Assembly (NCBI RefSeq): GCF_014803725.1
Contig: NZ_JAAVBE010000019.1
Span: 227,877-286,433, forward strand
Source of the DNA: Desulfovibrio sp.
GTDB taxonomy: Bacteria > Desulfobacterota > Desulfovibrionia > Desulfovibrionales > Desulfovibrionaceae
Direction: 5' to 3'
DNA length: 58,557 bases
A program made the translations under genes and the position numbers. The notes beneath the pieces are model-generated. The model was not told the origin of the DNA and did no database searches. It worked only from the letters and a program-made list of their open reading frames with translations. This document shows, piece by piece, positions 9,931 through 58,518 of the stretch (within the stretch, counting starts at the first letter, position 1; each line of letters begins with the position of its first letter).

Positions 9931-10017
9931 GCCGGGATGGTGGAATTGGTAGACGCAGCGGACTCAAAATCCGCCGGTGGCAACACCTTGCGAGTTCAAG
10001 TCTCGCTCCCGGTACCA
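9931..10017 (+). tRNA. tRNA-Leu (anticodon CAA)
   Basis: An 87-nt tRNA. The acceptor arm is GCCGGGA (9931-9937) against TCCCGGT with an encoded ACCA end at 10014-10017. The anticodon stem GCGGA/TCCGC encloses the loop CTCAAAA, so the anticodon is CAA at 9965-9967. A long variable arm (GGTGGCAACACC) and the T loop GTTCAAGTC fit a class II leucine tRNA. The first acceptor pair would be G-U. Its 3' 57 nt form the attachment core of the prophage, so the 3' end is supplied by phage DNA yet the gene stays intact. Confidence 0.95.
9961..10017 (+). other. attL core (57-bp direct repeat with attR)
   Basis: These 57 bases, from the anticodon stem to the CCA end of tRNA-Leu, recur without mismatch at 58462-58518. 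Flanking bases differ on both sides. The integrase gene lies 56 nt inward. This is the classic layout for integration into a tRNA 3' end. Confidence 0.95.
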
Positions 10018-10069: not shown

Positions 10070-10089
10070 GTATCACCATGTATCACCAT
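10070..10089 (+). repeat. Tandem GTATCACCAT repeats next to attL (candidate integrase arm sites)
   Basis: Two adjacent copies of the 10-mer GTATCACCAT (10070-10079, 10080-10089) overlap the integrase stop codon. Two more copies in inverted orientation lie beside attR (58399-58407 and 58412-58421). Position and orientation fit arm-type binding sites for the integrase N-terminal domain or an excisionase. Confidence 0.6.
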
Positions 10090-11131
10090 TTTTGGGGCTG
10101 TCCCCTGCCCCCTCCAGTCCGGGCATCAACGCCGCCGCCCGCGCCTGTCCTCCCGCTGTGACATGGGCGTATGTGCCCCCTGTCGTGGCGACATTGCTGT
10201 GCCCGAGCTGCGCGGCCACTGAGGCCAAGTCAGCGCCGCGCGCGAGCATTTCCGTAGCCGCGATATGGCGGATGTCGTAGGACCTCAGCTCAACGCAGGC
10301 CCGCTTGCATGCCAGGGTCCACGCCGTCCTGAAATTCAGGACGCGCCGCCCGTCGCCCCGGTGGCATACGAGGGGGATGCCCGCCGCCATGTCAGTCTCA
10401 TACCGCTCTCTCGCTTCCTCCATGTAGGCGGGATGAGGGACTACAGTTTTCAATCTACCGCTCTTGCCTTGCCGGACTATAACCACCCCGCGGCGCCAGT
10501 TAAAGGCATCCCACGTCAGGCCGAATAGCTCCACCTGTCCCGGTCGCAGAGCAAGAAAAAAGGCGGTTTTCACCGCCCATTGCAGGTATGCCGGAAGCTC
10601 AGGGAAGAGCCGCTTTAGGTCCTCAATTTTCGGTTGGAACACCGGGCGCACGATCTTCAGCTTTTTGAAGTCCCGCCACGGGTTGAAGCGTATGTGCTCC
10701 TGATCCACTCCCCATGCGAGAATCGCGCGAATGTAAGCCTGATACTTGTTGATGGTGTTGTTACCGGCGCCGCCTGCTCGCAGCCCCTCGCGCACCCGTT
10801 CCAAGTCTTGGCGCGTCAGGCTTTCCGCGTACTTGTCCCGCAAAAACTCCCCTACCCCGGGGATATGCACACCAGCCCTGTCATGCCCGGCCAAGAAGTA
10901 GACAATGTTCTTCTTGGTCTTGATATGCTTATCAGGATTTGAGCGGAAATAGAGAATGGTGAGCTCGCCAAGGGTAAGGCGCTCCTCCTCTTGCGTCTTG
11001 GCCTGGAGGCGTTCGGCCTCGAAAGCCCGCGCCTCCTGCTCAGTCTTGAAGTAGCGGCGTTTCTCCTTGCCGTTTTCGTCGCGCCACTTGCAGAAAAAAA
11101 GTGCGCGCTTGCTGGCCTTGTGGATGCTCAT
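10073..11131 (-). CDS. int: Tyrosine recombinase integrase
   Basis: A 352-residue site-specific recombinase acting on the tRNA-Leu att site. An N-terminal arm-binding-like segment (about 1-50, KWRDENGKEKRRYFKTEQEA) precedes a SAM-like core-binding domain (about 55-165) and the catalytic domain (about 175-330). Catalytic residues visible are Arg in LALRPGQVELF, the box YDIRHIAATEM with Arg and His, the GH of LGHSNV, and the Tyr nucleophile in GGTYAHV. The first His of the usual HxLRH box is replaced by Tyr, as in other phage integrases. It is the last gene of the leftward early operon, 10 nt after a small coiled-coil gene. Confidence 0.95.
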   Translation of the reverse strand: MSIHKASKRALFFCKWRDENGKEKRRYFKTEQEARAFEAERLQAKTQEEERLTLGELTILYFRSNPDKHIKTKKNIVYFLAGHDRAGVHIPGVGEFLRDKYAESLTRQDLERVREGLRAGGAGNNTINKYQAYIRAILAWGVDQEHIRFNPWRDFKKLKIVRPVFQPKIEDLKRLFPELPAYLQWAVKTAFFLALRPGQVELFGLTWDAFNWRRGVVIVRQGKSGRLKTVVPHPAYMEEARERYETDMAAGIPLVCHRGDGRRVLNFRTAWTLACKRACVELRSYDIRHIAATEMLARGADLASVAAQLGHSNVATTGGTYAHVTAGGQARAAALMPGLEGAGDSPKNGDTW

Positions 11132-15630: not shown

Positions 15631-16565
15631 TATGCGGACTCCTTACCGTTGCCGTTCTTCTGCTGCGCCTGATTCAAGTTCGCCTTGAGCAGAGACGCGG
15701 TTTCGGTTGTGGCCGCGCTGGCGTTCTTGCCCTCGTCCTGCTGGACGTAGTCGCTCCACTTGGCCTCGCCGGACTTGATGGCTGTATAGACCGTTTGCAG
15801 GTTGTCAATCTGCCCCGGGCTTGCCTTGTCAATGGGGCAGCCAAGATACTGCGAAAGGTCTTCCGGCGTGATGCGAATCTGCGCGAAGGCGTCACACACC
15901 TTGCGGATGCGTTCCTGCGGGTCGCTAACGTTGCCCTGACGGGCCTTGCGGGCCGTTTCCAGCGCCTCGTCAATGATGTCTTGCGGGATAAGCCGGAGCC
16001 CCTCATTGCGGACGACCTTGGAGATTGCCGCTGCTTCCTTCGTGGCAAGCTCGTCCTCTGTGGCGCGGACGATATAGACGGTCCTGCCGGAGGTATTGAT
16101 GCGCTCGCGCAGGATTTCGCGGCCCCGGTCATTGGAGCGCTCCACGGTCTTGTTGATGGTGATGACGCGCCCGAAGCAGGCGTTGGTTTCAAGGTCGAGA
16201 ACCTGCACCCTGATTTTGCGAATTTCGTCATTTTCAAAGGTGGTCGTCGTGTCCACCCGGATATTGCCCCACTGCTGGATCGCCAGTTCGGCAAAGCGGA
16301 TGCTCGGCCCGTTGACGGAGCCGCCGCCCACGGGCTTGGAATATTCCACCGTGGTGGCGAAGGACGGGCGCTTGCAGGCGTCCAGGATGCGCTGCCGGGC
16401 CTGCATATAGTTCCGGGGCCGATGCAGGGCCACGGTATAGGCCGCCTGCACAAGCGCCTTGGCTTCTTCCGCCGCGGCCACGGCCACGGGGTCAACCTGC
16501 GCGGGCATTGCCGGCGCCGAAATATTCGCCGCGCTGCCGCTTTCCATAATTTCCACTTCACTCAT
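15630..16565 (-). CDS. Putative phage recombination/ssDNA-annealing-associated protein
   Basis: A 311-residue protein. Segments [40 protein letters not shown] and [20 protein letters not shown] match a phage family usually encoded next to an exonuclease and thought to be a recombinase analogue of RecT/Erf (recalled knowledge, not proven). Its place between ssb and a YqaJ exonuclease supports that role. ATG 16565 with GGGGGAAGG upstream is the best start; the gene overlaps the exonuclease stop by 8 nt. Confidence 0.6.
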
Positions 16566-17415
16566 GGATGCCTTCCCCCTCTTGCTTGCTGTTGTCTCGC
16601 ACCCTTGCGATGCCCTTTTTGTCGATGCTGACCAATATATCCGCGCCCCTGACCTTCGCGCTGCCCGTGGCAATGCCCACGCTGACCAGCCTTTTGCGGC
16701 ACTGGGCCTCGTAGTCTTCCGCCTGTTTCAGGATATGCCGGGACTCCCGCCATATCCGGGCGGCTTCATTCCATTCCGGCGTGTCGATGGAGACCACTTT
16801 CCGCCCGAGCGGGGGCAGGTTGACGAGCGGGGCTGCGGGCGCTGTTTCGGGCGGAATGCCCGTCAGGACGTGCCTCTCCCAAAACTCGCGGGCAACGTCC
16901 CACATCAGGCGGATGAGTTCATCGTCCCGTTCCATGCGGACGACAAGGAGTCTGAAGGCATCCGCGTTCCACGCGCAGAAATGCGCCCATTCAAGCCCCG
17001 TCACGCCGAGATAATGCTGCATCTGCGCCTGATAGTGAGCGGGTACGCCCCCATCCTCCAGCGCGTAGAATTTCCCGGCGCGTGGGGCCTTGATTTCAAG
17101 GATGCCCGGCTGTCCCCCTTCGGCGGTTATCACACCGTCCACATTGGCGATGGCCCAGGTTTCCGTTCTGTGCCGCTGAAGTTCCGGCACGGTGACGCTG
17201 TTGCCCGTCTGGCGCATATACAGGTCGCGGATAATGGGTTCCAGGAAGTTTCCGCGCTGCATATCCACTGTTGGCTCTTTGTCCGCCGCGCCATAAACCT
17301 TTGCCTGCCAGACTCCATACGGTGTTCCGCCGAAGGGGCAGATGCCGAGGATTGAGGGCATATCAGAACCGCCAAGGCCGGAGCGGCGAAGTTCAAGCCA
17401 TTCTTTGCGGTTCAT
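16558..17415 (-). CDS. YqaJ-type viral exonuclease
   Basis: A 285-residue nuclease of the lambda Exo/YqaJ fold that resects dsDNA ends for the adjacent annealing protein. Visible motifs: LRRSGLGGSDMPSILG (about 9-24), GNFLEPIIRDLY with the catalytic Glu (about 55-66), DGVI, then GILEIKAPR (Glu-x-Lys, about 104-112) and HYQAQMQHYLGVTG. The C-terminal third is a helical tail. The start ATG 17415 overlaps the stop of the preceding gene (ATGA). Confidence 0.88.
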   Translation of the reverse strand: MNRKEWLELRRSGLGGSDMPSILGICPFGGTPYGVWQAKVYGAADKEPTVDMQRGNFLEPIIRDLYMRQTGNSVTVPELQRHRTETWAIANVDGVITAEGGQPGILEIKAPRAGKFYALEDGGVPAHYQAQMQHYLGVTGLEWAHFCAWNADAFRLLVVRMERDDELIRLMWDVAREFWERHVLTGIPPETAPAAPLVNLPPLGRKVVSIDTPEWNEAARIWRESRHILKQAEDYEAQCRKRLVSVGIATGSAKVRGADILVSIDKKGIARVRDNSKQEGEGIHE

Positions 17416-17789
17416 GATGCGCGCCGCCCGTCCCTGTAGGGCGAAGGCGGGGCCGGCCGTGCGCCGGAGCGGACCTGATTGTGGAAAAGGCGGCACGACC
17501 AGCAGAGCGTGCGCCCCGGCTCGGCGTCCTCGCGGCCGCAGTCCTGGCAGACGCCGTGCGCCTTGAGCGCTTCGCGGCGCCGGCGGGAATAGTCCGCCAT
17601 CTGGAGGCGCCGCGCCGCCTTGCGCTGCAGCATGACCTCCATGGCGTCGCAGGCGAGCTTCCACTTCTGCGTCACCTCGGCCACGGTGTGCCCCTTGAAG
17701 GGCCTGCGGCTGCCGTCAGGCATGGGGAAGGCGCCGATGACGCGGGGCTGTTTGGCGCGCGGCGGGTGGTATTCACGAATCACGGCCAT
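17412..17789 (-). CDS. Small zinc-finger phage protein
   Basis: A 125-residue basic protein. CQDCGRED...CWSC near 80-97 suggests a zinc ribbon; the rest (KWKLACDAMEVMLQRKAARR) is a basic helix. It is coupled to the exonuclease by ATGA, so it may be a DNA-binding partner. GGAGG lies 8 nt before ATG 17789. Confidence 0.6.
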   Translation of the reverse strand: MAVIREYHPPRAKQPRVIGAFPMPDGSRRPFKGHTVAEVTQKWKLACDAMEVMLQRKAARRLQMADYSRRRREALKAHGVCQDCGREDAEPGRTLCWSCRLFHNQVRSGARPAPPSPYRDGRRAS

Positions 17790-22130: not shown

Positions 22131-22446
22131 CGCGCTCCTGAACTTCGGCGTGGCTGTGGCGGTTCTCGCGCTGTGCATCGTCGGCTTCCGGCGTTGGTAA
22201 CCCAGGAGGAGGCACTGAATGGCCTTCACCACCTCCGTTCTCGGCGTGGTTCTGGTGCTGGGTGTGGCGCTCCTGATGCTGGACTAGACCAGCGAGGCAA
22301 CGCCGCAGCACCTGCTCCGCGTCCGGGTACGCCTCGCGCCTGTAGGTGCGCCAGCGGATGCGCCCGGGCGTGATGACGGCCACGCGCCAGTAAGCCGGGC
22401 GCCGGGTGAGACGAAGAAGGACGGGCACGGTGTGGGGAAATGGCAT
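22048..22446 (-). CDS. Uncertain antisense open frame, 132 codons
   Basis: Starts MPFPHTVPVLLRLTRRPAYW with GGAGG 7 nt upstream. Its first 53 codons fill a stretch (22288-22446) with no rightward gene, but it continues antisense through both microprotein genes and the Cro-like gene end, where it looks like shadow translation. Kept at low confidence because of the good start site. Confidence 0.25.
   Translation of the reverse strand: MPFPHTVPVLLRLTRRPAYWRVAVITPGRIRWRTYRREAYPDAEQVLRRCLAGLVQHQERHTQHQNHAENGGGEGHSVPPPGLPTPEADDAQRENRHSHAEVQERVRHPAPPAGRVQIQPRRLRVAWWGWLA
22123..22200 (+). CDS. 25-residue single-span membrane microprotein
   Basis: ATG 22123 is preceded by AGGAGG at ideal spacing and overlaps the end of the Cro-like gene. 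It reads MPDALLNFGVAVAVLALCIV then GFRRW: one membrane helix with a positive end. Directly followed by a second such gene. Confidence 0.6.
   Translation: MPDALLNFGVAVAVLALCIVGFRRW
22219..22287 (+). CDS. 22-residue single-span membrane microprotein
   Basis: ATG 22219 follows a strong AGGAGG. The product MAFTTSVLGVVLVLGVALLM plus LD is almost wholly one hydrophobic helix. It is 18 nt after the 25-residue gene, so they form a pair. Confidence 0.55.
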   Translation: MAFTTSVLGVVLVLGVALLMLD

Positions 22447-22505
22447 GGGCCATCCTCCCATGCTGTAGGCCGCAGGAATACGACAATTCAAGAGGATTGT
22501 TTGCC

Positions 22506-22979
22506 ATGAGGGAAATACTGGAATCCGCGCACGGCATCCTCAAGCGCTCCAGCCTGGGCGTGGAAGAGATCGTGGAGCGCGCCTTCGGCGTGGACGAGAA
22601 TGGCAGCCCGCGCAAGAGCCACTGGACGCTCTACAAGGAGCTCAACCCCAATGACAGCTCGGGCAAGCTCGGGGCCGTGGACCTGTTCCTCCTCATGCAG
22701 GCCACTGGCGACGTGGCTCCGCTGGAGGTCATGGCCCGGCTGCTCGGCTATGCGCTGCTGGACAAGCGCACGGTGACGCCGGATCGTTCCACATGGGCGG
22801 CCGAGCACGCGCAGGACAGTTGCGACATGGGCGCAATGGCCCGCCTCATGGACGAGGGCGCCACACCTGCCGAGGTGCAGAGCGCCGGATGCCGCCTCAT
22901 CAAAAACATCGAGGAGACGCTGGTGCAGTACGGGCGCGACTATGACGCGGGCGTGATTACCCGGCGCAAGGCGCAGTAG
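22506..22979 (+). CDS. Phage regulatory protein, CII/CP76 type
   Basis: A 157-residue protein. AHGILKRSSLGVEEIVERAF, SHWTLYKELNPNDSSGKLGA and LFLLMQATGDVAPLEVMARL match the P2-type CII/CP76 family of transcription regulators (DNA-binding HTH followed by a helical domain). In this rightward early position it probably sets the lysis-lysogeny balance. ATG 22506 has AAGAGG about 10 nt upstream. Confidence 0.7.
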   Translation: MREILESAHGILKRSSLGVEEIVERAFGVDENGSPRKSHWTLYKELNPNDSSGKLGAVDLFLLMQATGDVAPLEVMARLLGYALLDKRTVTPDRSTWAAEHAQDSCDMGAMARLMDEGATPAEVQSAGCRLIKNIEETLVQYGRDYDAGVITRRKAQ

Positions 22980-23260: not shown

Positions 23261-23902
23261 CTATCGGCAGAAGCTCACATGCGCCCTGATGTTGTAAATC
23301 ATGCGCAAGGCGTAAATGGCCTGATTGAGCGAGGTGACAGCCACATTGGCCGCCTCATTGGCGTTGTCATACAGCATCTGCTTTTCACTGGAGAGTACCG
23401 CAGCACGTCCGCCGGGGCGGGCAAAAAAGTGCAGAGCTTCACGGATGCCCTCAGCATTGCGCCGGAGCTTGTCCACATCATCGAAAAACTGCTTGCCGGT
23501 GGCATAGGTTTTGGCATCAAGCGTGATGGCGTTCAGCGTCGATTCCGCTGCGGCCTCGATGGCCTTCTGCTGGGGCATGGCCTTGTACTCACCGCCCTTG
23601 CGGATGGCCGGAAGCACCTCGGAGGCGACCCAGTTGGTGAAGGCGTCGGCCTCGGGCTTGTTGGAGCGGAAGGCCAGCTTGTAGACGGCGGGCTCGGAGA
23701 TGAACACCAAGTCACGGGTGGGGAATCCTTCCATGCAGAATTTCTGCATGGAACGCTTCCACTGCTCCGGCAGAACGTCCAAGCGGTTAATACGCCACGC
23801 CAAGCCAAGGGCTCGGCACACATCAACGGCTGCGAACCAAATTTCGTTGTTTTCGGCGACGGTGCGAATCTGGCGGGAATTGAAGGCGAAAACCTGGGAC
23901 AT
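23261..23902 (-). CDS. Bro-N domain antirepressor-like protein 1
   Basis: A 213-residue protein. N-terminal BRO domain: FAFNSRQIRTVAENNEIWFA, AAVDVCRALGLAWR, RDLVFISEPAVYKLAFRSNK and FTNWVASEVLPAIRKGGEY (about 1-105), typical of phage antirepressors. The C-terminal half is helical and unknown. The ribosome-binding site CGGAGG lies within a segment complementary to an upstream antisense RNA (23954-24027). It has its own terminator, so with the RNA it forms a self-contained cassette. Target repressor not known. Confidence 0.85.
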   Translation of the reverse strand: MSQVFAFNSRQIRTVAENNEIWFAAVDVCRALGLAWRINRLDVLPEQWKRSMQKFCMEGFPTRDLVFISEPAVYKLAFRSNKPEADAFTNWVASEVLPAIRKGGEYKAMPQQKAIEAAAESTLNAITLDAKTYATGKQFFDDVDKLRRNAEGIREALHFFARPGGRAAVLSSEKQMLYDNANEAANVAVTSLNQAIYALRMIYNIRAHVSFCR

Positions 23903-23909
23903 GGGAACC

Positions 23910-23930
23910 TCCGATGGATTGATGATGAAC
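23910..23930 (-). promoter_or_regulatory. Antisense target site (a2/b2-like) over the antirepressor 1 RBS
   Basis: On the mRNA GTTCATCA (23923-23930), 5 nt, then CCATCGGA (23910-23917) covering the Shine-Dalgarno. Both 8-mers are exactly complementary to TGATGAAC and TCCGATGG in the upstream C4-like RNA. Confidence 0.75.
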
Positions 23931-23953
23931 GCCTGATGAAGGGCGCAAAAAAA

Positions 23954-24027
23954 TCCGGGTGTTCATCACAGCCATCGGACTGCTGGCCGCCTTTAGCTTG
24001 CGCCTGGACATATCGGCCACACCCGGA
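23954..24027 (-). ncRNA. C4-type antisense RNA, module 1
   Basis: A 74-nt element closed by a perfect 9-bp stem (TCCGGGTGT 23954-23962 with ACACCCGGA 24019-24027). On the minus strand it contains ATATGTCCAGG and CTAAAGGCGGCCAGCAG, also present with small changes in module 2 (41242-41317), and the pairing segment TCCGATGG-CTG-TGATGAAC. This matches the known C4 antisense RNA of phages P1/P7, which is transcribed in the same direction as the antirepressor mRNA and blocks its translation. A possible promoter TTGTCA (24061-24066)-15-TAAAAG (24040-24045) precedes it. Confidence 0.8.
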
Positions 24028-24080
24028 AATACAGAAGCACTTTTACCCCAAATTTCCGGCTGACAACGGAAAAAGGGCGC

Positions 24081-24107
24081 AAAAAAAGCCAATGCTTTCG
24101 GGTTGGC
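24081..24107 (-). terminator. Terminator insulating antisense module 1
   Basis: On the minus strand GCCAA (24103-24107) pairs with TTGGC (24088-24092), followed by seven T. It stops leftward transcription from the DUF4145 gene before the C4 promoter. Confidence 0.65.
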
Positions 24108-24150
24108 GTGGCCGCCGATGGAGGTGTGATGAGCACCGTCAAGGCCACGC
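24106..24150 (-). ncRNA. C4-a1b1-like element, module 1
   Basis: An 8-bp stem GCGTGGCC/GGCCACGC (24106-24113, 24143-24150) encloses a second copy of the target: TCATCA (24127-24132) and CCATCGG (24115-24121) on the minus strand, again separated by 5 nt. The same kind of target mimic lies upstream of module 2. P1/P7 C4 loci carry an equivalent a1/b1 segment. Confidence 0.65.
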
Positions 24151-40204: not shown

Positions 40205-41194
40205 TTACCTGTTCAGCGCCGTCGCCATGCTGGTCGCCATCCGCATGTGCAGCCGCGCGAGGCGCAGGGCCTCCTTGAAGGATTCGCGCGCCCTGTCCTC
40301 GGCGGAGTAGAGGCCTTCCAACATGCACGAGATGCTGAACATGGTGTCGGCGTCCCGGCCGATTGCCGCCACGGCCTGGTGGATGGTGTCGCCCATGGCC
40401 GTGTCAATGCCCTCCATGAGCTTCTTGAAGCGCTCCTCGATTTCCGCTTCCCGGCGCGGGTATTCGTAAGACCAGAAGTCCACCATGGCCTTCTCGCGCG
40501 GCCCCACGACGTGCTTGTGGTTCCTGCGCATGGGATAATACTTGCCGTCCCGGTACACGAGGGGGCGCTCCTCCGGGGCCGGGGGAAGCTCGGCAGCCGG
40601 CGCAGCATTCGGCAGCCCCTGCACGCACTGGTCGATCTTCTCCTGCACGAAGGCGAGCGCATCCGGCAACCAGCTTTCCGGCAGGTCGTCGATGCGCGAA
40701 AGCTGGAAGTGCGCCCGCACCTGCGGCCACAACGCGGAATGCGAAATGCCGGACACCTGCGCCCAGGCATGGACGAGACTGCGCAGCGGGGCGCGGCTGG
40801 CGGCTGTGGAGAGGCCGTCGGGAATTTCCTTGACATTCCCGCAAAGCGCCGCGCGCTCTTCCTCCGCGAGCTTGTCAAGGATGTCCAGAACCCACTTCCT
40901 GAACGCCTTGGCAATAGCGGTGCGGGCGAGCATGGCGAGAAGATGGCAGCCGCGCAGGGAGAAGATGCGGCAACGCCCATTTGCCAGAACCCCATTTTGG
41001 GGGTCTGCGGTGATTTCAATGACTTGTGTCATGTCCGGGGTGAATTCGTCCGCATTGCGCTGGTACAGGCGCGAAACTTTGTCCTCGCGGGCGTACCCGA
41101 GGGCTCGGGCAAGCTCGGCCGCACGAATCCACAGGCTATTTTGGTAATGGATGGGAGTAATGGTGACGTCGTTGAAGGTCAGGGCCATTTCCAT
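40205..41194 (-). CDS. Bro-N domain antirepressor-like protein 2
   Basis: A 329-residue protein. Bro-N domain: LTFNDVTITPIHYQNSLWIR, AAELARALGYARED, GRCRIFSLRGCHLLAMLART and IAKAFRKWVLDILDKLAEEE (about 1-115). The following region (APLRSLVHAWAQVSGISHSA, WPQVRAHFQLSRIDDLPESW) matches the ORF6C/P22 antirepressor C-terminal type, and a further helical domain follows. The ribosome-binding site TAGGAG is covered by a target of its own C4-like RNA (41242-41317). Unlike antirepressor 1 it is inside the late-gene region. Confidence 0.85.
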   Translation of the reverse strand: MEMALTFNDVTITPIHYQNSLWIRAAELARALGYAREDKVSRLYQRNADEFTPDMTQVIEITADPQNGVLANGRCRIFSLRGCHLLAMLARTAIAKAFRKWVLDILDKLAEEERAALCGNVKEIPDGLSTAASRAPLRSLVHAWAQVSGISHSALWPQVRAHFQLSRIDDLPESWLPDALAFVQEKIDQCVQGLPNAAPAAELPPAPEERPLVYRDGKYYPMRRNHKHVVGPREKAMVDFWSYEYPRREAEIEERFKKLMEGIDTAMGDTIHQAVAAIGRDADTMFSISCMLEGLYSAEDRARESFKEALRLARLHMRMATSMATALNR

Positions 41195-41203
41195 AATGTC
41201 AAC

Positions 41204-41218
41204 TCCTACGTTTGTGAA
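41204..41218 (-). promoter_or_regulatory. Antisense target site (a2/b2-like) over the antirepressor 2 RBS
   Basis: On the mRNA TTCACA (41213-41218), AA, then CGTAGGA (41204-41210) covering the Shine-Dalgarno. These are complementary to TGTGAA and TCCTACG of the C4-like RNA at 41242-41317. Confidence 0.75.
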
Positions 41219-41220
41219 TT

Positions 41221-41244
41221 GCGCTTTCTGAAAAAAGAAAGCGC
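41221..41244 (-). promoter_or_regulatory. Hairpin between C4 RNA 2 and the antirepressor
   Basis: GCGCTTTC (41221-41228) pairs with GAAAGCGC (41237-41244), loop TGAAAAAA. It lies at the 3' edge of the RNA, where processing or termination would release it from the antirepressor mRNA. Module 1 has no equivalent. Confidence 0.6.
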
Positions 41245-41317
41245 CGGGTGTTCACACGGCGTAGGACCGCTGCCAGCCTTTAGGACAAAGCCCTGGACAT
41301 ATCTGGCACACCCGGCG
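41242..41317 (-). ncRNA. C4-type antisense RNA, module 2
   Basis: A 76-nt element closed by a perfect 10-bp stem (CGCCGGGTGT 41242-41251 with ACACCCGGCG 41308-41317). It shares ATATGTCCAGG and CTAAAGGCTGGCAGC (minus strand) with module 1, but its pairing segment is TCCTACG-CCG-TGTGAA, matching only its own antirepressor. A perfect TATAAT lies at 41329-41334 on the minus strand, so transcription would begin just before the element. Confidence 0.85.
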
Positions 41318-41380
41318 TTAGTGCAATGATTATAGCCCTAAATACTGTCAAAATATATCTTGACTTTGGAAAAAGGGCAT

Positions 41381-41408
41381 AAAAAAGCGCCAAACTTACG
41401 GGTGGCGT
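41381..41408 (-). terminator. Terminator insulating antisense module 2
   Basis: On the minus strand the 41403-41408 arm (ACGCCA) pairs with 41387-41392 (TGGCGC), one G-U, followed by TTTTTT. Same position relative to C4 as in module 1. Confidence 0.65.
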
Positions 41409-41416
41409 CAATACCG

Positions 41417-41440
41417 CCTACGGGGTGTGAAGCCCGTAGG
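41417..41440 (-). ncRNA. C4-a1b1-like element, module 2
   Basis: A perfect 8-bp hairpin CCTACGGG/CCCGTAGG (41417-41424, 41433-41440). On the minus strand it carries TTCACA (41426-41431) and CGTAGG (41417-41422), a second copy of the C4 target separated by 3 nt. Confidence 0.65.
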
Positions 41441-41530
41441 GATAGAGAGACACAGATTTCTGAAAAAGTCAAGAGGAAGTTTTAAAAGGGGTTGACGAAG
41501 ATGAAGCAGGGATACCTTACAACATGGAAC

Positions 41531-41785
41531 TTAATCAAGCGGAAGCCCATTAAGGCGTTTTAATAATTTTCTTCTCGGGGTAAATCCAAGATATTTGAAA
41601 TTTTCTTCGCCTTCGACATTCGACGGTTTTATATAAAATCTTCCAACATGGGGGATATTAACGGCATGAGCATCAGCTAGAATATTTGACATTTGAGCGC
41701 AGAGGGCATCCCACAACTCTGATGATTCCTGAAAAGATAATCCAGTTTTTTCTTGGATTATTTCTAGCAATGTATAATTCTTCAT
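41531..41785 (-). CDS. HU/IHF-family DNA-binding protein
   Basis: An 84-residue protein. LLEIIQEKTGLSFQESSELW, HAVNIPHVGRFYIKPSN and LGFTPRRKLLKRLN follow the HU/IHF pattern (helical dimer core then beta-arm/basic C-terminus), though the long beta-arm with the usual PxTG is shortened. AT-rich and in the accessory island, so possibly acquired. ATG 41785 is the first Met of the conserved region; ribosome-binding site weak. Confidence 0.7.
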   Translation of the reverse strand: MKNYTLLEIIQEKTGLSFQESSELWDALCAQMSNILADAHAVNIPHVGRFYIKPSNVEGEENFKYLGFTPRRKLLKRLNGLPLD

Positions 41786-41918
41786 ACAAATAAGGCAGTA
41801 TGCCAAATTATGAACACGAAAAAAGCCATTGACAAACGGAATGGCGACCGTCGTTTGGGGAGTTCTGAGGCTCCGTAAGGTGAGGACGCCATAAAATCTG
41901 TGGGATGTCAAGGGAATA

Positions 41919-42113
41919 TTATCTTGTGGGGTCGTAGATGTCACCCTTATCATCAAGATCATACCAATCCTGCCCGTCATACCCCCAAATACTTATTGGC
42001 GTAGCGCCGTCTGCTTGGGCTTTGGCCGCAGCGGCACAGGCATCCTCAAAGTTATCAAAATCCGGTACTCCATTTAGTGGACGAACTCCATTCATCACTC
42101 TATATTTTTTCAT
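41919..42113 (-). CDS. Hypothetical 64-residue acidic protein
   Basis: Starts MKKYRVMNGVRPLNGVPDFD and ends ISIWGYDGQDWYDLDDKGDI plus YDPTR. AGGAGG precedes ATG 42113. Small acidic fold, not recognised. Confidence 0.55.
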   Translation of the reverse strand: MKKYRVMNGVRPLNGVPDFDNFEDACAAAAKAQADGATPISIWGYDGQDWYDLDDKGDIYDPTR

Positions 42114-42396: not shown

Positions 42397-43056
42397 CTAT
42401 CTGCCTTTCGGCCTGCATTCCGGGTGATTTGTCTTCCACAAGGCGCTTGCCTCGTCCCACGTCTTGGGGGTTATGCCCTCGCAGGGGTCTTTTTTGGCCT
42501 TTTGCGATGTGGGCGCCGGGGGCGCAGCTTCGGGCGCGGCCTGTTGCTGCGTGGTCACAGGTTCTTTTTGAGCGTCCTGCTTCTTGGTATCTGGCAGCAC
42601 AGCCCCGATAGCCGCCATGACCAGAATGGCAATCGCCACCTTTTGCCAGAGTGGCCGCTTCTTTTTTACCGGGGGCAGGCCACCTTGCGCCTGCGCGCGC
42701 TGCAATTCAAACAAATGGCCCCGGATGGCGTCCATCATGGGGCCATTGGCACGCGCAAGCCCCTGCTTGCCATCGCGTGTGGTGATGACGACCGTGGTTT
42801 CAACCTGGTTGCCGCCGGCCACGCTGCCGACGATGGCACCCACGCCGCCCGTGAGGACGCCGCCGATGATGGCGCCCCCTACGGCTCCCCCGGCCTTCTT
42901 GACGTTCTCCCCGGCGCCTTGCACTTCACAGGAGGCAATATCTGACAGGGAGAGCGACTTGCCGAACAGGCCGCTGCCTGAAAATGAATCCTTGCCCGTG
43001 TAATAGTATTTCGTCTTGCCGAAGTCCCCAGCGATGAATTGGAGATAGGCCGCCAT
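42397..43056 (-). CDS. Glycine-zipper membrane protein coupled to an HsdR-N nuclease
   Basis: A 219-residue protein. Residues 1-50 form a small domain (FGKTKYYYTGKDSFSGSGLF). GGAVGGAIIGGVLTGGVGAI (about 56-75) is a glycine-zipper membrane segment like those of pore- or scaffold-forming proteins. A second hydrophobic helix LWQKVAIAILVMAAIGAVL (about 140-158) precedes a Pro/Ala/Gln-rich linker and a Cys-containing tail (DPCEGITPKTW). Its start overlaps the nuclease stop (TAATG), so both are made together. Function unknown. Confidence 0.65.
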   Translation of the reverse strand: MAAYLQFIAGDFGKTKYYYTGKDSFSGSGLFGKSLSLSDIASCEVQGAGENVKKAGGAVGGAIIGGVLTGGVGAIVGSVAGGNQVETTVVITTRDGKQGLARANGPMMDAIRGHLFELQRAQAQGGLPPVKKKRPLWQKVAIAILVMAAIGAVLPDTKKQDAQKEPVTTQQQAAPEAAPPAPTSQKAKKDPCEGITPKTWDEASALWKTNHPECRPKGR

Positions 43057-44150
43057 TATTCACCCCCCTCCTTGGCCTTTTGGGCCGTATCGTATTTTTT
43101 CGCCGTGGCGCGGATGCGGTCTGCCAGCGGCAAGATGTCGTCCAGTTTCTCGATTTCCACCCGGTCGTCCTTGGTATCGCCGTCAAAGAGGCCGACCTTC
43201 CACGGGCGCTTGTTGAAGTGCAGCCGGAAAAGCGGCTTCGTGATTTTGTCGTCCAGAAGGATATTGCAGAAGTTCACGGCGTCCCTGATTGCCACGCGCT
43301 CCGGCTCCACCGTGCCGATAAGCAGGGATTTGACGAGGTAGAAGGCCTGCAATTCCTCGGGCGTGGTCACGATGTTGGGGCCGCTCTTCGCCTCTTCCTG
43401 CGCTTCGGCGTCTTCCGCCGGCTCGGGCTCCGGCTTCTGCTGGGTCATGGCGTTTTTCAGGCGCTCGTTGATGCGGTCGTTGAGGAACTGCGCCATGGCT
43501 GTCTTGAGCACGGGCGTGAAGCGCTCGCGCACGTTCTGGGTGATCTTGCCGTCATAGACCTTGCCGATGAAGAAGCGCACGAAGTCCTCGTCCGGCTCCT
43601 CCATTTGCCTGGCCATGACCTGCTTAAACTCGCGGTTGTATTTGAGCTCATTGGCCGACACCACGCAGGCGTCCCGGTCAAAGCGGCCCTTGGCGAGCTT
43701 GCGCAGCTCCGGGATGAGCGACTCCTCCATGTCGTCCAGCGTGAACTCCATGTAGGGCTTGCTGTCCATGCGGTTGGGCGCTTCGAGGTCGGAGAAGAAG
43801 CGGTAGCGGTTGCCATCGGTCAGGATGGCGATGGGTGCCTCGGTGCCGTGGAAATAGATCTGCAACTGGTTGCAGTGTTTGAACTCCAGCGGCGTGCCAA
43901 GCGTCTTGCACTCGATGATGAGGATGGGCTTTCCATCGGCAAGGATGGCATAGTCCACGCGCGCGTCCTTGTATTCGCCGATGGGCGCGGAAAATTCCGC
44001 CACAACTTCCGCCGGGTTGAACACATCGTACCCGAGCGCCTGGATGAACGGCATGACCAGCGTGTTCTTGGTCATCTGCTCGTTCTCCAGCCTGTCCCTG
44101 TGCAGCCGGACGCGCTTTGCCAGTTCGAAGATTTTTTCCTCAAAGTCCAT
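43056..44150 (-). CDS. Stand-alone HsdR N-terminal (PD-ExK) nuclease-like protein
   Basis: A 364-residue protein. The N-terminal domain (EKIFELAKRVRLHRDRLENE, TLVMPFIQALGYDVFNPAEV, ARVDYAILADGKPILIIECK) is the type I restriction R-subunit nuclease fold with Asp and Glu-x-Lys catalytic residues. No DEAD-box helicase or S/M subunits follow, so it is not a normal type I system. The C-terminal half (PEPEPAEDAEAQEEAKSGPN linker, then FYLVKSLLIGTVEPERVAIR and VNFCNILLDDKITKPLF) is a separate domain. GGAGGG supports ATG 44150. Probably a defence or exclusion protein (inference). Confidence 0.8.
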   Translation of the reverse strand: MDFEEKIFELAKRVRLHRDRLENEQMTKNTLVMPFIQALGYDVFNPAEVVAEFSAPIGEYKDARVDYAILADGKPILIIECKTLGTPLEFKHCNQLQIYFHGTEAPIAILTDGNRYRFFSDLEAPNRMDSKPYMEFTLDDMEESLIPELRKLAKGRFDRDACVVSANELKYNREFKQVMARQMEEPDEDFVRFFIGKVYDGKITQNVRERFTPVLKTAMAQFLNDRINERLKNAMTQQKPEPEPAEDAEAQEEAKSGPNIVTTPEELQAFYLVKSLLIGTVEPERVAIRDAVNFCNILLDDKITKPLFRLHFNKRPWKVGLFDGDTKDDRVEIEKLDDILPLADRIRATAKKYDTAQKAKEGGE

Positions 44151-44252
44151 GTGTACCCTCCACCCTGAAATTTCCCCTGAGCGACCGCAGCCCACCCCGG
44201 GGCCGCGTATATCGGATGCTCTATCAGGGCCGAAAACCGGGGGGAAGTCAAG

Positions 44253-58461: not shown

Positions 58462-58518
58462 GACTCAAAATCCGCCGGTGGCAACACCTTGCGAGTTCAA
58501 GTCTCGCTCCCGGTACCA
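58462..58518 (+). other. attR core (57-bp repeat of tRNA-Leu 3' end)
   Basis: Exact copy of 9961-10017. Only the 3' part of the tRNA is present, so it is not a functional tRNA gene. The host chromosome resumes at 58519. Confidence 0.95.

Follow-up and report, generated by a model that had tools for sequence, protein, structure and literature searches.

The region analyzed here, a stretch of 58,557 nucleotides from Desulfovibrio sp. (the window), raised the question of whether the RNA-like scaffold in front of one antirepressor-type gene (ant2) is a second C4-like antisense switch, with a specificity different from that of a sister scaffold in front of another such gene (ant1). The first-pass annotation of this DNA had proposed two such switches, orthogonal to each other, in one phage. 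The explanation that we favor, and regard as distinctly probable, is that module 2 is the second of two C4-like switches, in which an antisense RNA would block the ribosome-binding site (RBS) of the antirepressor gene and attenuate its own leader as a feedback, with little or no cross-repression between the modules.

Two modules in one prophage

Both modules were contained in one 48.5-kb prophage bounded by a 23-bp exact repeat (Table 1), and the second self-matched module with other letters that the annotation had placed in the same prophage was indeed located there. The genes between the attachment repeats encoded a terminase, portal, head protease, major head, tail sheath, tape measure and baseplate. 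A RecE-like gene (16558-17664) and the terminase gene (29639) were located on the two sides of module 1, which was adjoined by a gene for a CII-like regulator (22440-22979), whereas module 2 was flanked by head genes (to 38862) and connector/tail genes (from 45602), in line with the assignment of one module to the early region and the other to the head-tail island. The minus-strand island of module 2 also encoded an HSDR_N-type endonuclease (43056-44195) and a small protein whose match to the HU type was weak (41531-41980, minus).

Table 1. Positions of the prophage ends and of the parts of the two modules in the window
Feature	Position	Strand	Details
Left attachment repeat	9992..10014	+	tRNA gene 3' end
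Integrase	10073-11131		Beside the left attachment repeat
Right attachment repeat	58493..58515	+	23/23 identical to the left repeat
ant1, 213 aa, Bro-N antirepressor-type	23261..23902	-	Pfam Bro-N 1.2e-19; PHROG anti-repressor Ant 6.2e-32
RNA 1 target	23910..23930	-	a2 GTTCATCA 23930-23923; b2 CCATCGGA 23917-23910
Putative C4-like antisense RNA 1, 74 nt	23954..24027	-	R1 53.4 bits at 23953-24028; fold -32.6 kcal/mol
Pairing segment of RNA 1	23961..23979	-	b' TCCGATGG 23979-23972; a' TGATGAAC 23968-23961
Module 1 leader copy and proposed attenuator	24081..24132	-	a1 TCATCACA 24132-24125; b1 CCATCGG 24121-24115; U tract 24087-24081
ant2, 329 aa, Bro-N antirepressor-type	40205..41194	-	Pfam Bro-N 6.7e-8; PHROG anti-repressor 1.6e-36
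RNA 2 target at ant2 RBS	41204..41218	-	a2 TTCACA 41218-41213; b2 CGTAGGA 41210-41204
Putative C4-like antisense RNA 2, 76 nt	41242..41317	-	R1 60.4 bits (the source alignment of R1 includes RNA 2 itself), fold, mapped coordinates
Pairing segment of RNA 2	41251..41266	-	b' TCCTACG 41266-41260; a' TGTGAA 41256-41251
Core word CTAAAGGC, module 2	41283-41276	-	One further copy, in module 1
Core word ATATGTCCAGG, module 2	41302-41292	-	One further copy, in module 1
Proposed attenuator, module 2	41380..41418	-	X GGCG 41418-41415 (begins in b1); Y CGCC 41407-41404; computed only
Proposed terminator, module 2	41407-41403 / 41392-41388, U tract 41387-41380	-	CGCCA / TGGCG; computed only
Module 2 leader copy	41417..41431	-	a1 TTCACAC 41431-41425; b1 CGTAGG 41422-41417
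TTGACT box, module 2	41467..41472	-	41 nt before a1; predicted transcript start near 41436
TTCACA-N0-20-CGTAGG, RBS	41218-41205	-
TTCACA-N0-20-CGTAGG, RNA complement	41251-41265	+
TTCACA-N0-20-CGTAGG, leader	41431-41417	-

Architecture of the modules

All parts of both modules were on the minus strand. Module 2 was arranged in the order TTGACT box, a1, b1, terminator-like hairpin with U tract (41407-41380), RNA, a2, b2 and ant2, and this order recurred in module 1 (24176 to 23902). RNA 2 consisted of a closing stem (CGCCGGGTGT/ACACCCGGCG), which set its ends at 41317 and 41242, an inner stem with the conserved AUAUGUCCAGG/CUAAAGGC core, the b' hairpin and the single-stranded a'. Its fold had an energy of -35.6 kcal/mol, and 3 of 200 shuffles were equally stable. 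The annotation had reported that this scaffold shared the closing stem and two core words with module 1, which proved correct: each word was found once per module, and ATATGTCCAGG combined with CTAAAGGC occurred at only two places in the host genome assembly, namely modules 1 and 2. The inner stem P2 differed between the two modules. The a2/b2 blocks of module 2 overlay the Shine-Dalgarno sequence of ant2, a gene of antirepressor type by its Pfam and PHROG matches. Three relatives of ant2 were found among the named genomes, all in Desulfovibrio. In one relative of ant2 (L246), 87% identity was confined to residues 106-329, a pattern suggestive of an exchange of the N-terminal domain. U-rich stretches were observed 3' of the closing stems (CTTTCTTTTTT in module 2, 41230-41251 minus; TTTTTTT in module 1, 23945-23962 minus), so each closing stem may double as the terminator of its own RNA.

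Matching of the RNA with its two target sites

The two-block word of module 2 (TTCACA-N0-20-CGTAGG) matched exactly three sites on the two strands of the window, where 0.05 were expected, and none of 100 shuffles contained three. The word of module 1 (TCATCA-N0-20-CCATCGG) also gave exactly three window matches, at the RBS, the RNA complement and the leader (0.03 expected; 0/100 shuffles with three), and in this search neither word matched at the other module. The whole-window result agreed with the earlier statement that TCCTACG/TGTGAA fits only the RBS of its own antirepressor gene and an upstream copy. The accompanying claim that the letters change together at all three sites held for both words in the window and for the relatives described below (35, 66 and 57 modules).

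When position was ignored, module 2 alone was only modestly unusual: shuffled targets scored as high in 34/1500 cases on the RBS side and in 64/1500 on the leader side, compared with 1/1500 and 11/1500 for module 1. The 2-4% reached by the module 2 matches in these position-free shuffles would suit the view that unrelated hairpins resemble each other by chance. This view was contradicted by the three exact sites against 0.05 expected, by compensatory changes in the stems and by permutation tests across the family. In these tests, the b'/a' stretch of each RNA was scored against the RBS side and the leader side as two collinear exact blocks, a procedure that recovered the annotated a1, b1, a2 and b2 of P1 as a positive control. 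For 35 type A modules (the scaffold type of the window), the own means were 12.7 (RBS) and 14.9 (leader), and the permutation maxima were 10.9 and 11.7. For 66 modules of four scaffold types, in which L145 and L176 were both counted although they are the same module, the own means were 12.8 and 13.8 and the non-own means 9.7 and 10.6, and none of 20,000 permutations reached the own mean. The same was found for 57 held-out modules, which were drawn from other genera of the family and comprised 56 of the 68 sRNA-Xcc1 matches obtained outside the own genus as well as the type A locus L224, with own means of 13.1 (RBS) and 14.5 (leader), permutation maxima of 10.5 and 11.4, and no permutation of 10,000 reaching the own value. 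The annotation had suggested looking in related prophages for joint change of the a1b1, C4 and a2b2 sites, and the own matches above all permutations in the 66 and the 57 held-out modules are what such change would produce. Self-matching was also found within each scaffold type (distinct modules: 39 of sRNA-Xcc1, 13 of type A and 8 of c4-2; 0/10,000 permutations each), with related modules being non-independent events in all of these counts. At the family level the match was beyond chance; the held-out set already speaks against a chance origin, to which we assign a negligible probability.

In the alignment of 34 type A scaffolds, all four pairs of P2 showed changes on both sides, and 78.7% of the cells were paired. 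P2 counts as evidence and the core words and closing stem do not, because the scaffolds were selected on the latter and not on P2. Duplex energies of whole stretches were rejected as a discriminator of own and other targets, since the own target was best in only 2/35 cases, whereas exact two-block matching separated them. By our reading, no convincing RBS match was present in 9 of the 35 viral modules of type A (L019, L028, L030, L036, L069, L083, L088, L094 and L103), whereas the leader matched in all nine. Eight of them (L019, L028, L036, L069, L083, L088, L094 and L103), with a good leader match, are perhaps leader-only or trans-acting.

Comparison with known RNA families

The folds of both RNAs had the layout of C4, in which a closing stem encloses an internal hairpin, the b' loop and a'; b'/a' could pair with a2b2 at the RBS of the gene predicted to be under control, and a second copy, a1b1, was present in the leader. 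Like the C4 RNAs of P1 and P7 (RF01695; c4-a1b1, RF03163), the window RNAs are about 76-77 nt in length, have an internal hairpin within the closing stem together with a b' hairpin loop and an unpaired a', show matches of b'/a' to one copy at the RBS and another in the leader, and lie upstream in the antirepressor operon on the same strand. Unlike them, the window RNAs have a different internal core and occur as two modules per prophage. In addition, the RBS copy is directly before ant in the window prophage, whereas it is before icd in P1, and the terminator switch computed at b1 in the window prophage has no counterpart in P1. The RF01695 model did not recognize module 2, for which no Rfam family was found up to E 5, and at gathering scores, the only threshold applied to module 1, Rfam identified nothing but a tRNA in the whole window; P1 C4 scored 68.8 bits with RF01695 as a control. 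The name C4 given in the annotation is thus apt for the mode of working and not for membership in the Rfam family. An antisense RNA of the P22 sar type is made from the strand opposite its target, and this identity was ruled out by the location of RNA 2 and ant2 on the same strand.

The c4-2 RNAs (RF02944) have the same layout and precede the ant2 relatives L124, L126 and L174, but have a different internal core, and all matches found were below the family cut-off. The sRNA-Xcc1 RNAs (RF02221) likewise differ in the internal core, although in bacteria of the family they have the same layout and self-matching and precede ant1 relatives. Neither the RF02944 nor the RF02221 model matched module 2 or the genome of the window.

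C4 itself, its b'/a' pairing and the separation of P1 from P7 are already known, c4-a1b1, c4-2 and sRNA-Xcc1 are catalogued, and several C4-like RNAs per genome have been described. Reports on P1/P7 describe b'/a' pairing with RBS blocking, specificities kept apart by a 4-nt change, and processing of a longer transcript by RNase P to give the 5' end of C4; the P1 sequence record labels the C4 leader sites "putative". Many C4-like sRNAs in one genome are reported for Acinetobacter, and a 2025 table for Xylella gives two RF01695 matches about 11 kb apart with an RF02221 match between them, as well as a cluster of five RF02221 copies. The literature presents sRNA-Xcc1 as trans-acting, with a large number of predicted targets, and such an action is reported for Xanthomonas; sRNA-Xcc1 loci in front of symE have also been reported outside the bacterial family considered here. 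Among the titles and abstract openings retrieved, with search terms that did not include the core sequence, none dealt with the type A core; none dealt with two matched C4 switches in one prophage or with sRNA-Xcc1 as C4-like, and none with a C4 attenuator, which older P1/P7 papers may discuss for the leader. What may be new here is a possible terminator switch at the leader copy, in an RNA that is predicted to work like C4 and fails the Rfam C4 model.

Distribution and exchange of scaffolds

The strict core pattern was found in 2/199 genomes of the family, one of them the own genome, and a covariance model was built because these matches were too few. Scanning viral contigs with the core pattern gave at least 120 stretches, and 35 scaffolds were kept among the matches listed. 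An alignment (A1) of 34 of these type A scaffolds, with L107 omitted for its long insert, was the source of the covariance model R1. The model found both window modules, as expected because both RNAs were among the 34 aligned, and found nothing in P1. Type A gave no Rfam match at gathering scores in a search of 14 loci, other types among them.

One layout with four scaffolds (type A, c4-2, C4 and sRNA-Xcc1) was found in the relatives, often before antirepressor-type genes. A C4 RNA preceded one ant1 relative (L133, 57 bits) and sRNA-Xcc1 preceded two (L129, 58.9 bits; L130, 61.3 bits; cut-off 53), and c4-2 preceded two ant2 relatives below its cut-off of 41 (L126, 39.5 bits; L124, 32.7 bits). 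Kinship of the cores was hinted at by one type A element (G214, 2281.6 kb), since it scored 64.1 bits with R1 and also 35 bits, below the cut-off, with RF02221. Domains were searched in 84 of 85 downstream frames (L176 was omitted as a repeat); a frame was absent for 13 of the 98 modules. In 59 frames, with domains that can overlap in one protein, these were Bro-N (12), CI-type (8), Rha (7), ORF6C (6) and P22_AR_N (5), the remaining frames being without matches to them, and anti-repressor PHROGs headed the list. In 25 viral frames they were ORF6N (6), Rha (3), Bro-N (2) and P22_AR_N (2).

Judged from the alignments, scaffolds are exchanged between close antirepressors, while the layout and its three matched sites are retained. 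The ant2 protein had 261/322 residues and 466/558 bases in common with L174, and the 160 nt before the start could not be aligned; ant1 had 156/210 residues in common with L127, and no alignment was obtained before the start. Conversely, L138 had 95/112 nt of the RNA region in common with module 2, yet the protein encoded downstream was unrelated.

Within the genus, sRNA-Xcc1 was found in 23/79 genomes (14 over the cut-off), type A in 5/79 and c4-2 in 6/79 (none over the cut-off); the wider samples gave sRNA-Xcc1 in 33/119 family genomes and type A in 4/120 order genomes. The sRNA-Xcc1 loci L150-L169, L176-L223 and L225-L244, including tight clusters in genome G108, showed C4-like matching to the leader and the RBS of the gene that follows each of them. 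A broader reading of these data is that C4-type RNAs form a superfamily with interchangeable cores (C4, c4-2, sRNA-Xcc1 and an unlisted AUGUCCAGG/CUAAAGGC core), with one two-site mechanism in the clade and with stacked cassettes. The same b' letters would close the antirepressor RBS and take the last b1 bases, thereby tripping the terminator; the copy of the Shine-Dalgarno GG would serve as the antiterminator arm, and modules with unlike letters would be independent switches exchanged before antirepressor genes. We consider the chances for and against this reading to be evenly balanced.

The leader copy as a candidate attenuator

The annotation had described the upstream copy as part of a hairpin. 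The copy was confirmed at 41431-41417, but the leader element was more than a hairpin copy. A consensus scan called no promoter and no terminator at module 1 or module 2. In the 98-module set, a terminator-like hairpin with a U tract followed b1 in 34/72 leaders (shuffled mean 3.8, maximum 8). A switch, in which Y can pair either with the end of b1 (X) or with Z on the 3' side of a second hairpin, was present in 35/70 (shuffled mean 3.1, maximum 9) and at 66/1260 other anchor positions used as a control. This set contained the doubles L136/L081, L137/L108, L140/L048 and L145/L176, and deduplication gave the switch in 32/66 leaders and the terminator in 32/68. Some viral members had the second hairpin without a U tract. 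Among the held-out leaders, the terminator followed b1 in 34/45 (shuffled mean 2.2, maximum 5).

A TTGACN box was located 30-60 nt before a1 in 50/72 leaders (control 5.3%), and at 41-44 nt in 30 of these 50, which places the transcript start 5-8 nt before a1 under the rule that the start lies 36 nt after the beginning of the box. Since this rule was fixed after the results for different start positions were known, the folding results for the sets of 21 and 23 leaders are exploratory, whereas for the held-out leaders the fixed rule was applied to new loci. Folding was computed at equilibrium and not co-transcriptionally. Blocking of a1 and b1 raised the median terminator probability in 23 leaders from 0.03 to 0.81 (up in 18, down in 2). 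The means for 21 distinct leaders were 0.28 when free, 0.71 with a1 and b1 blocked and 0.31 with a random block; blocking b1 alone gave 0.59, b1 without its last three bases 0.34, and the last three bases alone 0.57. In 24 held-out leaders, the probability was 0.41 when free and 0.78 when blocked (p 1.2e-6), compared with 0.44 for b1 without its last three bases and 0.43 for random blocks. In the window, blocking changed the probability from 0.15 to 0.96 in module 2 and from 0.00 to 0.36 in module 1. The effect was present when the start was assumed at a1-8 or a1-12 and absent at a1-16 or a1-20. At a1-45, no attenuator effect was obtained, and the a1b1 block gave less terminator than random blocks (0.25 vs 0.37, p 0.03); this difference of opposite sign came from leaders that likely include untranscribed promoter DNA. 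A mutually exclusive antiterminator and terminator, with the choice shifted by blocking, was thus computed in modules 1 and 2 and in the held-out set, in a manner dependent on the start.

These computations suggest that the leader copy may be an attenuator, in which the end of b1 would be the antiterminator arm and blocking would free the terminator. The competing explanation is plain C4 action by RBS blocking only, with the leader copy as a decoy or as a remnant of the duplication that gave rise to the antisense RNA, and with no terminator function. RBS blocking is the action described in reports on P1/P7, no switch was found in the folded P1 leader, and the variation of the effect with the assumed start also fits this explanation. 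It fits less well with the leader copy being kept at least as well as the RBS copy (14.9 vs 12.7; held-out 14.5 vs 13.1), with the terminator after b1 in 34/45 held-out leaders against 2.2 in shuffles, and with the requirement of the blocking effect for the last bases of b1 in the held-out set. We regard plain RBS blocking as unlikely to be the whole action, and attenuation at the leader copy is retained in the preferred explanation. An attenuator role for the P1 leader was rejected as unsupported, since blocking raised the terminator probability from 0.86 to 0.92 only.

In the plasmid attenuators of pT181 and pIP501, an antisense RNA acting on the nascent leader decides between antiterminator and terminator, and this RNA comes from the opposite strand. 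The window RNA, unlike these, is located downstream on the same strand and is predicted also to block the RBS with the same letters.

Predicted separation of the two switches

Each RNA ranked first of 66 at its own RBS, with pairing energies of -19.7 and -26.4 kcal/mol. At the RBS of the other module, RNA 1 ranked 14/66 (-15.7 kcal/mol) and RNA 2 ranked 11/66 (-16.2 kcal/mol), so own pairing was stronger by 4.0 and 10.2 kcal/mol. In the leaders, RNA 1 ranked 1/66 at the site of its own module and 37 at that of the other, and RNA 2 ranked 10/66 and 34, respectively. With shorter segments, the energies were -24.2 and -16.4 for own and -12.6 and -8.6 for cross pairing. Both RBS cross energies were better than the medians over the 66 RNAs (-13.1 and -11.8 kcal/mol); separation is therefore likely and, on paper, not absolute, because the own RNA ranks first and cross-pairing is above the median.

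Two modules in one viral contig were found in two more cases (36 kb, L124 and L129; 24 kb, L142 and L130). In 14 same-contig groups, a near cross-match was present in 3 of 40 ordered pairs and absent in 37; in several of these groups, some RNAs lacked a match downstream, and the grouping is by contig, which does not prove a single prophage. Another 51-kb viral contig contained two type A core places (L019 and L091), and a later stem filter kept L019 only.

The above-median cross energies and the three near cross-matches elsewhere could mean that the switches are not orthogonal in the cell, with RNA 1 also repressing ant2, or the reverse, and the two modules forming one redundant lock. Such a lock is improbable in our estimation, given the lead of own pairing by several kcal/mol at both sites, the failure of either two-block word to match the other module, the 37 pairs without a cross-match and the 4-nt change reported to separate P1 from P7. 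Each RNA probably silences mainly its own antirepressor gene, the orthogonality being predicted from pairing.

Proposed mechanism

In the proposed mechanism, the leader transcript would start just before a1b1, traverse the C4-like RNA and, if not stopped, continue into ant2. We infer that the RNA is produced, that it blocks the RBS and that the downstream proteins are active as antirepressors. The b' loop and a' strand of RNA 2 would pair with b2 and a2 and hide the Shine-Dalgarno sequence of ant2, so that the antirepressor would not be made in the lysogen. The same letters would pair with b1 and a1 in the nascent leader and capture the last bases of b1; with this antiterminator arm taken, the terminator would form and transcription would stop before the RNA and ant2. 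Such termination would probably act as negative feedback on the operon, the RNA itself included. An excess of transcripts over the RNA, as might arise when the phage enters a new cell, would allow ant2 to be made and presumably to inactivate a repressor. Protein binding and stabilization of the RNA are possible roles of the conserved core. Since the design recurs in module 1 with different letters, little or no cross-repression would be expected between the switches, and the two unlike modules would represent two separate triggers, which would let one lysogen control two wake-up genes separately. Both the attenuation and the orthogonality in this scheme are computational predictions. If correct, they would give the leader site of a C4-type module a concrete, testable job, and two unlike self-matched switches in one prophage would provide a natural set of paired RNA-target parts. 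For sRNA-Xcc1 in bacteria of the family, the self-matching points to a simple neighboring target, the ribosome-binding site of the next gene.

An operator-like dyad (TCAAGA-TATA-TTTTGACA) followed by TATAAT was observed at 41346-41363 on the minus strand, downstream of the leader terminator and upstream of RNA 2. The pattern TCAAGAN{3,6}TYTTGRCA, devised after this sighting, had one match in the window, namely the dyad itself, with 0 expected, and similar dyads were noticed by eye in L124 and L125.
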